Source of the DNA: Cryptosporangium phraense
GTDB taxonomy: Bacteria; Actinomycetota; Actinomycetes; Mycobacteriales; Cryptosporangiaceae
Assembly (NCBI RefSeq): GCF_006912135.1
Contig: NZ_VIRS01000006.1
Span: 62,001-126,000 of the forward strand
Direction of reading: 5' to 3'
Length of the DNA: 64,000 nt
Both the position numbers and the translations under genes were made by a program. This document shows, piece by piece, positions 56,410 to 60,309 of the stretch. Below the pieces are notes generated by a model that was not told the DNA's origin, made no database searches, and was given only the letters and a program-made list of their open reading frames with translations. Positions within the stretch are counted from its first letter, which is position 1; each line of letters opens with the position of its first letter.

Positions 56410-57594
56410 GTGAGACTCGTCCGCACGCGCGCCACGTATCTCGTCTACGCGAGCCTCGGCTTCTACGGTTGGTTCATCTACGGCTTCGGCCCGGTCGTCC
56501 CCCTGATCCGCGACGAGCAGGGCACCAGTCGCGCGGTGGCCGGCCTGCACAGCACCGCGCTGGCCGCCGGCGCGCTCGTCGCCGGAGCGCTGTACCCGGT
56601 GCTGGCCCGCCGGATCGGCCGCAGCAACACGCTCTACGGCACCGTGCTCGGTCTCGGACTCGGGATCGTGCTGCTGGTGTCGGTCCCGTCCGCCCCGGCC
56701 GTGACGATCGCGGCCACGCTCTGCTGCGGGATCGTCGGCTCCACGTTGGTCAACGTCGCCCCGCCCGCGCTGCTCGACGTCCACGGCGCCGAGACGTCCG
56801 GTGCGGCGTTGGTCGAGGGCAACGCGATCGCGACCGGCACCGGCCTGATCGCCCCGCTGGCCGTCGGGCTCGCCCTCGACCACGGTTACGGCTGGCGGCC
56901 CGCGCTGCTGGTGGCGAGCGTGCTTGCGGCCGTGATCCTGGTGGTCGGCCGGTCCACCGGTGCCCGCCTGCCGTCCCCTCCGCTTCATTCTGACGATGGG
57001 CGGCGAACCGAAGTTGTAAATGCTGCCTTACCGGGCCGGTACTGGATCGCCTGGGGCGTCACGCTGTGTTGCATCGCGGCCGAGTTCGCGACCACGCTCT
57101 GGGCGTCGGACGTCCTCCGCGACCGGACCGGGGCGAGCGCGGCCCTGGCGACCGCGGCGGTGACCGCGGTGGTGGGCGGAATGTGCGCCGGGCGGATCGT
57201 GGGGGCGTTGCTCGCGGCCCGGTTGCCGGGGTTCGTCGTGTTGTTGCCGGCGCTGGGGGTGGCGCTGGCCGGGACGGCGGTGTTCTGGGGGGTGACCGCG
57301 GCGGGGTGGGCGATCGTCGGGCTGGCGGTTCTGGGGTTGGGGTTGGGGCCGTTGTTTCCGTTGTCGGTGGATCTGGCGTTGCGGGCTTCTGGGGGGCAGT
57401 CGGATCGGGCGGCTGGGTATTCGTCGTATGCGGCTGGGCTGGCGATCGGTGGGGGGCCGTTCATTCTCGGAGCCTTGGCCGACGTGGTTGGCCCGCACGC
57501 GGCGTTCTTAGTAGTTCCAGCCCTTTTCGCCGCAGCGGCGCTAGGGGTCCTAGGAGTCCGCCGCTCCACCAAGTCAACCCTGCTACCCGCGTAA
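56410..57594 (+). CDS. MFS transporter
   Basis: 394 aa with 12 predicted helices in two six-helix bundles and a central loop near residue 190. The A-motif-like RRIGRSNT between helices 2 and 3 supports MFS; the substrate is unknown. The GTG at 56410 starts a helix directly (RTRATYLVYASLGFYGW) and has a leaderless promoter. The last third uses a poorer set of codons (many TTG, GGG, TTT) than its neighbours, close to the start of the repeat tract. Confidence 0.85.
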   Translation: MRLVRTRATYLVYASLGFYGWFIYGFGPVVPLIRDEQGTSRAVAGLHSTALAAGALVAGALYPVLARRIGRSNTLYGTVLGLGLGIVLLVSVPSAPAVTIAATLCCGIVGSTLVNVAPPALLDVHGAETSGAALVEGNAIATGTGLIAPLAVGLALDHGYGWRPALLVASVLAAVILVVGRSTGARLPSPPLHSDDGRRTEVVNAALPGRYWIAWGVTLCCIAAEFATTLWASDVLRDRTGASAALATAAVTAVVGGMCAGRIVGALLAARLPGFVVLLPALGVALAGTAVFWGVTAAGWAIVGLAVLGLGLGPLFPLSVDLALRASGGQSDRAAGYSSYAAGLAIGGGPFILGALADVVGPHAAFLVVPALFAAAALGVLGVRRSTKSTLLPA

Positions 57595-57658
57595 TCCCTC
57601 AGCAGCCGCCCGAGAGCGCCGTCCCCTGCGCCGTGCGTACCTCTCGCCCGCGCTTCGA

Positions 57659-57702
57659 CGACTTTCCGGGCTTCTCCCGCCCCGCGAAGCCCCCAAAAGT
57701 CG
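57659..57702. terminator. palindrome left of the C-rich tract, probable terminator
   Basis: CGACTTT and GGGCTTC pair with GAAGCCC and AAAGTCG around an 11-nt loop. It lies 65 bp past the MFS stop. A closely similar sequence recurs at 58851-58894. Confidence 0.6.
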
Positions 57703-57779
57703 CAAACCCGCGCCCCCGCCCGCCGACCCCCGCCTTCTGCCCGCGCCCTCCACCCGCACCCTGCACCCCTGCACCCCTG

Positions 57780-58400
57780 CACCCCTGCGCCGCGCCTGCG
57801 CCCTGCGTCCCGCGCCTTGCGCCCGCGCCCTGCGCCCGCGCCGTGCTCCCGTGCCCGCGCCCGTGCCCTGCGCCCGCGCCCTGCGCCCGCCCTGCGCCCG
57901 CCCTGCGCCCGCCCTGCGCTCGCGCCCTACGCTCGCGCCCTGCTCCCGTGTCCTGCACCCGCGCCCTGTGCCCGTGCCCTGCGCCCGCGCCGTGCTCCCG
58001 TGCCCGTGCCCTGCGTCTGCGCCCTGCGCCCTCGCCCTACGCTCGTGCCCTACGCTCGCGCCCTGCTCCCGCGCCCTGTGCCCGTGCCCTTTGCCCGTGC
58101 CCGTGCCTGTGCCCGTGCCCTGCGCCCGCGCCCCGCCCTGCGCCCGTGCCCTGCGCCCGCGGCCTCCGCCCGCACCCTGTGCCCCTGCACCCCTGCGCCG
58201 CGCCTGCGCCCTGCGTCCCGCGCCTGCGGCCTGCACCTACGCCTGCGCCGCCGCCTGCGCCTGCGCTCTTCGCGGGCGCCCCTGCGCCGCGGCCAGCGCC
58301 TGCGCTCTTCGCGGGCGTCCCTGCGCCCGGGGCCTGCGCCTGCGCTCTTCGCGGGCGTCCCTGCGCCCCCTGTGGCCTGCGTCCCGCGCCTTGTGCACTC
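57780..58400. repeat. C-rich degenerate tandem repeat, quadruplex-prone on the minus strand
   Basis: Several hundred bases of short units such as GCCCTGCGCCCGC and GCCCGTGCCC, repeated imperfectly. CCC runs recur every 3-6 nt, so the minus strand holds many overlapping G3N1-7 quadruplex motifs. Plus strand is strongly C-rich over G, unlike flanking genes. Confidence 0.85.
58261..58357. repeat. three tandem copies of a ~40-bp unit
   Basis: CTGCGCTCTTCGCGGGCG occurs at 58261-58278, 58300-58317 and 58340-58357 (period 39-40 bp), followed each time by C/TCCCTGCGCC. The most regular part of the C-rich region. Confidence 0.8.
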
Positions 58401-58850
58401 CGTCCCGCGCCCCGCGCCTGCGTTTCATGCCCGGCGTGCGGCCACGCGCCGGAGCCCCGAGCCCGCGCCTGACGGGCCACCGCGCCCGTGACCTCGCTCT
58501 CCGCACCCCGGCGGGTGGCCGGGCCGGAGTCGGTGGGTCGGCCGGCGTGGGCTCGGCGGGCGGCCGAACGGGCGCGAAGGGTCGGCGGGGGATGGAGTGG
58601 GGCGGCGGATGATCGGCCGGTCATTGTGTCCGCCGACAGGCGCAACCGGTGGCTGAGTCGGCCGACCGGGGGCGCTCAGGTCAGGCGGTGGCGGCTCGGC
58701 CGCGGCCGGTCGGCAGCGGCGGCACGGCGGGTGGCTGGGTTTCGTGGTCGGCGCCGATGCCTGCCGGGGTCGCTGCCTTTGCGAACCGCAGGGGCCGACC
58801 CCGACGACGGTGCCACCAACCACCTCAGGGCAGGGTGACTCGCGCTTTAC

Positions 58851-58894
58851 CGACTTTCCGGGGTCTCCCGGCTGCTCAGAAGCCCGGTAAGTCG
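58851..58894. terminator. palindrome right of the C-rich tract, probable terminator of maf operon
   Basis: Arms 58851-58862 (CGACTTTCCGGG) and 58883-58894 (CCCGGTAAGTCG) pair with one mismatch. It is 90 bp past the maf stop on the minus strand and nearly repeats the sequence at 57659. Confidence 0.6.
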
Positions 58895-58984
58895 TGAATC
58901 CGCGCGGTAGTGCACACCCGTTCGCGCTGTCGGCCCCGCAGCCCCACGGGGCCCCGCGGCCGCGGGCGCACATCCGGGGGCGGG

Positions 58985-59575
58985 TCAGGGCCAGAGGGAG
59001 ACGGCGGGGATCCCTAGTTGGGACAGCAGCGAGCGGAACAGGGGCATCGAGAGGCCGATGACGTTCGTGTGGTCACCATCCAGCCCCTCCACGAACAGCG
59101 AACCACGGCCATCGATCGTGAACGCACCGGCCACCACGAGCGGCTCCCCACTCGCCACGTACGCCGCAACCTCATCCTCCGACGGCGTCCCGAATCGCAC
59201 CGCGGTGGACGCCACGGCCGAGACCTCCTGGCCGGTCACCGAGTCGACGATGCAGTGCCCGGTGCGCAACACGCCGGTGCGCCCGGCCATCAGCTGCCAC
59301 CTGGTCACCGCGTCGGCGGCGTCCTTCGGCTTTCCGTAAGCCACGCCGTCCAATTCGAGCACCGAGTCGCAGCCGATCACCACCGCGCCGGCCGCGGCTT
59401 CGGTGGCCACGACGGCGCGGCACTTGAGCTGGGCCAACTCGAGCGCGATCTCGCTGGGCGTACCGGTCGCGCCGGACTCGTCCACTCCCGACACGATCAC
59501 CTCGGGCGCGAACCCGGCGTTGCGCAGCAGGTTCAGCCGCGCCGGCGACTGGGACGCCAGAATCAGCCGCCTCAT
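58985..59575 (-). CDS. maf: Maf family nucleotide pyrophosphatase
   Basis: 196 aa house-cleaning pyrophosphatase acting on non-canonical nucleoside triphosphates. LILASQSPARLNLLRNAG at the N-terminus and GCDSVLELDG with the catalytic Asp are diagnostic; KPKDAADA and VGAFTIDG-type blocks follow. ATG at 59575 overlaps the upstream GNAT stop by 4 bp. Last gene of accD-accE-GNAT-maf. Confidence 0.93.
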   Translation of the reverse strand: MRRLILASQSPARLNLLRNAGFAPEVIVSGVDESGATGTPSEIALELAQLKCRAVVATEAAAGAVVIGCDSVLELDGVAYGKPKDAADAVTRWQLMAGRTGVLRTGHCIVDSVTGQEVSAVASTAVRFGTPSEDEVAAYVASGEPLVVAGAFTIDGRGSLFVEGLDGDHTNVIGLSMPLFRSLLSQLGIPAVSLWP

Positions 59576-60309
59576 GGTTCCAGCGACTTCGTCAGCACCA
59601 GCGCCACGTCGGTCTCCCATAAATCCTCCAGCTCCAGCACGGGGGCGTATCCGCGGCCGCGCCAGAACTGCCGAGTGGGCTCGTAGGTGTGGGAGAACGC
59701 GGACGTGATCGCCGAGATGTTCTGAAAACCCTGGGTGGCCAGCAGCCGTTCCAACCTGGTCAGCAACGTGGTGCCGACGCCCTTGTGCCGCAGTGCGGAG
59801 TGGACGGCCATCCAGGTGATCTCCGCGGCCTTGTCACCGTGGCGCTTCCAGGTCAGGAACCCGAGCACGTCGCCGCCCGGTCCGATCGCGACCAGCCCGC
59901 CCTGGGTGCCCAGGTCACGGGCGGCCTGGGCGATGCTCCGGCCGCCGGGCGCCGGCTCGTCCTCGTCGTCGGGCATGCCGTGACGACCGCGGCGGGGACG
60001 GACCGGATGCACACCGGACGCCGGATGCGTCGCGGACGTGGGGCGCGTGCTGCGGAGCGGGGTCCGCGACGCGCCGGAAGACTGCGACCGGTGCGCGCCG
60101 ACCTTCTCCGGCTCGTCGGTCTTGGCGGTCTCGTCCGCCGCGGCCCGCTCGGCCGCCTCCTTGGCCGCGGCCTCCTTGGCGACGTCGGCGCGCATGCTCT
60201 CGCCGAGGGGACCGCCCTCGCTGACGGCGAAGAAGCGCGGCAGCGACGCGATGACCCGGAGACAGCCTTCGACGTCTCCGCGGCGGAGTGGACGGATCGT
60301 GAGGCTCAT
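59572..60309 (-). CDS. GNAT acetyltransferase with long disordered insert
   Basis: 245 aa. LTIRPLRRGDVEGCLRVI begins a GNAT fold, which resumes after about 80 charged, low-complexity residues (about 35-115) with GGLVAIGPGGDVLGFLTW and the acetyl-CoA loop MAVHSALRHKGVGTTLL. Normal GNAT length is about 150-170 aa, so the insert accounts for the excess. Lies between accE and maf, overlapping each by 4 bp. Acceptor unknown. Confidence 0.82.
   Translation of the reverse strand: MSLTIRPLRRGDVEGCLRVIASLPRFFAVSEGGPLGESMRADVAKEAAAKEAAERAAADETAKTDEPEKVGAHRSQSSGASRTPLRSTRPTSATHPASGVHPVRPRRGRHGMPDDEDEPAPGGRSIAQAARDLGTQGGLVAIGPGGDVLGFLTWKRHGDKAAEITWMAVHSALRHKGVGTTLLTRLERLLATQGFQNISAITSAFSHTYEPTRQFWRGRGYAPVLELEDLWETDVALVLTKSLEP

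Follow-up and report, generated by a model that had tools for sequence, protein, structure and literature searches.

A C-rich repeat tract in a convergent gene gap of Cryptosporangium phraense is probably a lineage-specific minisatellite

Four described kinds of bacterial element come closest to the locus analysed here: intergenic minisatellites (VNTRs), Rho-utilisation (rut) sites, quadruplex-forming tracts and, for its flanks, bidirectional terminators or REP-like palindromes. The search rule given in the available part of PMC6407284 recognizes a Rho-utilisation (RUT) region by a surplus of C relative to G and by C residues recurring every 11-13 nt, and according to the same part these rules derive from E. 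coli, B. subtilis and Salmonella. For G-quadruplexes (G4s), the part of PMC12563890 available to us reports that bacterial motifs are enriched between genes, particularly near gene starts. A limited literature search returned nothing on point for convergent-gap repeats, terminator palindromes or G4s in actinobacteria or Cryptosporangium. The tract described below lies in a 64,000-nt stretch of the Cryptosporangium phraense genome (the window, to which its coordinates refer) and, taken with its flanks, resembles each of these systems in part. We conclude that it is probably a lineage-specific, non-coding, GC-rich minisatellite that grew by slippage and duplication in a convergent gene gap. Many gaps in this genome are filled with repeats, and this appears to be another of them, not a dedicated switch or barrier.

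A first-pass annotation had reported a degenerate C-rich tract at 57780-58400, and the tract is real, with the repeat reaching slightly wider, from about 57715 to 58430 (Table 1). Within 57780-58400 the plus strand is 53% C, 29% G, 16% T and 2% A and contains 60 runs of three or more C residues. Its GC skew of -0.29 lies more than 4 sd from the window mean (0.001, sd 0.067), and the window's top eight 620-bp stretches for C skew all start within 57541-57681. Tandem Repeats Finder (TRF) scored the array at 433, with 48.3 copies of a 13-bp unit and 71% matches, and also found periods of 97 and 123 bp; autocorrelation peaked at 13, 123, 97 and 408 bp. Identity at a shift of 13 was 59% where 40% was expected, which shows head-to-tail copies beyond chance. 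The perfect CCCTGCAC run is apparently a recent local expansion, and by eye a short inverted repeat can be seen within every 40-bp unit at the array end. Because the assembly is in 87 contigs, with several arrays and hairpins at contig ends, the tract's real length may not match its length in the assembly.

Table 1 Features of the convergent gene gap and its flanks (window coordinates; gene models from our home-made gene finder).
Feature	Position	Strand	Description	Evidence
MFS transporter gene	56410-57594	+	Left convergent neighbour	Gene model; Pfam MFS_1, E 7e-24
Hairpin A	57652-57712		Decayed copy of dispersed palindrome family	Covariance model R1, 55.1 bits on +, A being among the 20 copies used to build R1
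Quadruplex-motif stretch	57707-58193	-	7 non-overlapping G3N1-7 motifs	Regular expression
Degenerate tandem array	57739-58368	C-rich +, G-rich -	13-bp unit GCCCGCGCCCTGC	TRF
Perfect 8-bp run	57759-57788		Unit CCCTGCAC, 3.8 copies	TRF, 100% matches
Three tandem 40-bp units	58248-58367		At array end	Repeat family D5, 93% identity
Unique stretch	58431-58841		Rest of the spacer, GC-rich and non-repetitive	No gene model
Hairpin B	58846-58907		Second copy of dispersed palindrome family	Covariance model R1, 66.3 bits on +, B likewise among those 20 copies
Maf-like protein gene	58985-59620	-	Right convergent neighbour	Gene model; Pfam Maf, E 9e-51

The flanking genes converge, as the first-pass annotation had it (MFS ends at 57594 on the plus strand, Maf-like at 58985 on the minus strand), and the non-coding spacer between them measures 1390 bp. 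Nine open reading frames of at least 80 aa overlap 57715-58430. Each scored below zero, from -0.13 to -0.45 per codon, when codon usage was trained on this same genome, where the two flanking genes scored +0.28 and +0.29, and none of the nine had a Pfam match at E 0.01. The earlier claim that the tract holds no credible coding frame is thus borne out, and a protein-coding repeat is ruled out. The window also contains no known RNA family at gathering score.

Comparison within the genus gave the clearest indication of how the block arose. We compared four genomes, this one and those of three congeners, with one genome per species. Orthologues of maf are present in all three congeners, and maf and the MFS gene are adjacent and in the same orientation in each. 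In two congeners (L019, L020) the genes share a 26-bp overlap, in the third (L021) a 4-bp gap separates them, and the array, hairpins A and B and the unique stretch are all missing from the orthologous junction in 3/3. Since the same genes overlap or nearly touch in all three, the block is specific to this lineage, and the 1390 bp would most simply be a gain in it. The suggestion that the tract is an expanding repeat is supported by this absence and by repetition at 8, 13, 97, 123 and 408 bp. Four further array-bearing spacers were compared with the congeners and three were informative. One spans about 805 bp here and 48-55 bp between aligned flanks in 3/3 congeners; another is about 1750 bp here and 115 and 227 bp in the two congeners with both flanks aligned; and the last is about 635 bp shorter in the sole congener in which both flanks aligned. 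An array gap (L275) and a hairpin gap (L217) were uninformative, their flanking genes not aligning together in the congeners.

Arrays of this general kind are common in the genome. With TRF thresholds of score 80 and length 80 bp, on which these counts depend, 31 gene spacers carried an array in a 1.264-Mb sample (parts of contigs 1-3 plus the window, chosen regardless of repeats), which extrapolates to about 200 array spacers in 8.46 Mb. Searching the genome with the tract as query returned the full block a single time, and repeat units vary from array to array. A single shared 13-bp array family is therefore ruled out, and the differing units argue against one shared nucleoid-protein binding sequence, a role that had been proposed for the tract. 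Arrays occurred in 11/205 convergent, 14/677 tandem and 6/206 divergent spacers (convergent versus tandem, p 0.027; convergent versus divergent, p 0.23). Among spacers of at least 300 bp the figures became 10/37, 13/52 and 4/37, so the difference is mostly a length effect and arrays specific to convergent gaps are ruled out. Long gaps hold arrays, and convergence itself adds little. One congener (G001, 0.4 Mb sampled) has its own arrays in seven spacers, and thus the genus has two or more species with such arrays. Separately, in the same congener an 18-bp repeat run (unit TCCGGGGGCTCCGTTCAG with variants, L317 at about 217-290) lies inside a predicted gene (2-640).

These observations suggest how the tract could have been built. 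Short C-rich units would have multiplied through replication slippage and unequal duplication, with those of 8 to 13 bp growing first and blocks of about 100 to 400 bp following, and point mutation would later have blurred the array. Such growth would have been tolerated because neither a promoter nor a reading frame is present where two gene ends meet. Growth may also have been aided by the G-rich strand, as quadruplex-prone DNA can stall a polymerase. The tract seems to lack a selected function, and its quadruplex and Rho-site potential is more likely a consequence of its growth than a function, with G4s perhaps a driver of that growth. Selection on G4s or a causal role for them may nonetheless operate, given their enrichment in the arrays as a group (below). 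The minisatellite reading draws on one genome of the species.

The best functional rival, though an unlikely one, is Rho termination: the array would be an oversize Rho-utilisation region where transcripts running on from the MFS gene are stopped short of maf, as a backup to the decayed hairpin A. Such RNA would be C-rich and G-poor with cytosines every 12-13 nt. On the plus strand C exceeds G and C residues recur every 11-13 nt across about 78 nt, which fits the rule in the available part of PMC6407284. Using our own regular expression rather than the published program, we counted 97 rut-like starts on the plus strand in 716 bp (135 per kb) and none on the minus strand, compared with 4.4 per kb for a single strand of the sampled genome and 4.5 per kb when both of its strands were counted. 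Mononucleotide shuffles of the tract gave 58 +/- 16 starts, and 3/300 reached 97. This spacing follows from the C-rich 13-bp unit, however, and other arrays have other periods; in several of the 20 largest, rut-like counts were not above shuffles. The sense strand of the 14 tandem array spacers leans the expected way, with 8 C-rich, 3 G-rich and 3 neutral, but against 138 control spacers (30 C-rich, 45 G-rich) the lean was not significant (Fisher p 0.054). Furthermore, the congeners manage without the tract, and the RUT rules, as the available part of PMC6407284 gives them, are based on E. coli, B. subtilis and Salmonella.

A broader proposal would make gene ends in the genus hot spots of turnover, where each species repeatedly installs its own hairpin family and C-rich, quadruplex-prone arrays at convergent and 3' borders. 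C-richness of the sense RNA would be favoured for helping Rho to insulate adjacent genes, stalling of polymerases on the G-rich strand would promote further growth, and the tract would be an extreme, fast-evolving terminator with no conserved sequence. We consider this proposal doubtful.

The G-rich minus strand could instead form quadruplexes, or R-loops between maf run-through RNA and DNA, and act as a roadblock to transcription or replication, an explanation we judge improbable. The minus strand was said to carry dozens of overlapping G3N1-7 motifs. That is correct for overlapping starts, of which there are 23 in 57780-58400 and 30 in 57715-58430, and incorrect for non-overlapping motifs, which number 5 and 6, respectively; the plus strand of 57715-58430 has none. 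Seven of the window's nine minus-strand motifs lie within the quadruplex-motif stretch of Table 1, and G4Hunter scores fell below -1.2 in 19.6% of the tract's 25-nt steps as against 0.9% in the window. The 30 starts exceed dinucleotide shuffles (9.4 +/- 5.5; 0/500 reach 30), but they are within the range of mononucleotide shuffles (mean 19.5; 60/500 reach 30). The evidence is stronger for arrays together: 24/31 array spacers contain one or more motifs, and the 74 motifs of all 31 (1.9 per kb) exceed mononucleotide shuffles (58.3 +/- 7.1; 0/100 reach 74), whereas 99 array-free spacers of at least 300 bp hold 13 motifs (0.15 per kb), well below mononucleotide shuffles (34 +/- 5). Array spacers thus have about 13 times the G4 density of array-free ones of that length. 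The highest count among array spacers is eight, in the tract's own spacer and in one other.

G4 motifs are a real feature of the arrays as a group. This enrichment need not mean selection, since repeating any unit with a G-run brings G-runs together, but quadruplexes driving array growth would fit it equally, a point in favour of the first-pass annotation. Against a roadblock, 7/31 array spacers have no motif on either strand, one of them with a 504-bp array, and no G4 element is conserved at the orthologous place, the tract being absent in 3/3 congeners. The intergenic enrichment described in the available part of PMC12563890 is in line with G4s between genes, but it applies particularly near gene starts and not ends. 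The suggested replication or transcription barrier thus finds no direct support: the tract is within mononucleotide shuffles, it is absent from the congeners, and G4-free arrays exist.

The related palindromes noted in the first-pass annotation do flank the tract, and both belong to a dispersed family with a consensus of about GCGGNTTGACGACTTTCCGGGGTTCT-loop-AGAACCCCGGAAAGTCGTCAATCCGC. The covariance model gave at least 102 strand matches in this genome, counted as 55 distinct sites, and at least 10, 11 and 11 strand matches in the three congeners; all of these are lower bounds because scoring covered 150 of the roughly 9,000 initial candidates in each genome. One further site truncated at a contig end and another present only in separately retrieved sequence brought the number to 57, with weaker or cut matches left out (L220:5186, L165:1 and L204:4787). 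Beyond A and B, the 55 further sites lie in L161-L186 and L201-L220. A half-site pattern matched 34 times, a few of them outside palindromes, and the reversed pattern 0 times. With three sites inside predicted genes and ten at contig ends set aside, and the window's spacer counted twice, 33 of the 44 sites with both neighbours resolved were convergent, 10 tandem and 1 divergent. Convergent spacers make up 65/492 of background spacers of at least 60 bp (p 5e-18 for the bias). A and B have predicted fold energies of -19 to -27 kcal/mol, while those of two intact family members are -43 to -53. Covariation between the arms was not beyond shuffles (0.144 versus 0.142 shuffled), and 13 pairs showed a double change where 10.5 were expected (64/500 shuffles reach 13). 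In the light of pairing that lacks covariation beyond shuffles, the hairpins resemble decaying copies of a sequence more than stems maintained by compensatory change. They are probably bidirectional intrinsic terminators that spread as repeats.

Several single loci add detail on this family. One convergent gap holds the palindrome here (L170:5018-5090), strong hairpins of other sequence in G001 (L309) and G003 (L310), and no strong hairpin of that kind in G002 (L311), as though the terminator at this gap had been exchanged separately in each species. Family hairpins also lie inside tandem duplications near contig ends, of about 490 bp with 82% identity at L174:4985-6466 (contig C39) and of about 198 bp with 87% identity at L165:1-567 (contig C24). 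Congeners have sister palindromes (L194, L195 and L197 in G003; L199 in G002) with similar outer and different inner arms, for example TTGACG...CGTCAA in G003 and GACGACTTTT...AAAAGTCGTC in G002.

The hairpins are a population of elements separate from the array. Convergent hairpin spacers hold arrays no more often than convergent spacers of at least 60 bp (6/32 versus 11/65, Fisher p 1.0, the window being in both). We accordingly reject as highly improbable the idea that the 1390-bp block arrived as one mobile unit bounded by A and B: the two are related, and array and hairpins are missing together from three congeners, but arrays and hairpins show no association among convergent spacers, 41/57 hairpin sites lie more than 1 kb from any array (though the other 16/57 lie closer), and the units of other arrays differ.

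If the tract is a lineage-specific minisatellite, as we favour, then repeat growth in a permissive gap can give a single lineage a striking G4-prone tract, and G4 counts in high-GC genomes therefore need controls for composition, repeats and orthologues. The roughly 13-fold G4 density in arrays raises the question of whether quadruplexes drive repeat growth or repetition creates quadruplexes. The strand lean, if upheld in a larger sample, would provide a test of Rho termination as a force shaping repeats that look neutral. Finally, the hairpin family at convergent genes offers a compact system for the spread and decay of bidirectional terminators.

Set against the known systems, the hairpins resemble bidirectional terminators or REP-like palindromes, as these are generally understood, in having at least 57 dispersed copies, mostly convergent, and long stable stems in intact copies; they differ in that the copies looked at have no T-run and the arms are conserved in sequence with no covariation beyond shuffles. 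Like quadruplex-forming bacterial tracts, the tract repeats G3N1-7 motifs on its minus strand and belongs to arrays that are G4-rich as a group, yet it sits at gene ends and taken alone is not above mononucleotide shuffles. Like rut sites, as the available part of PMC6407284 describes them, its plus strand has C over G and cytosines every 11-13 nt, whereas its length is about nine times a 78-nt site, it is unconserved at the locus and its spacing is unlike that of other arrays. It departs from bacterial intergenic minisatellites and VNTRs in being degenerate (71% matches) and very GC-rich (83%), in a comparison of one genome per species. With them it shares head-to-tail units of 8 to more than 100 bp in a gene gap, lineage specificity and local perfect runs.
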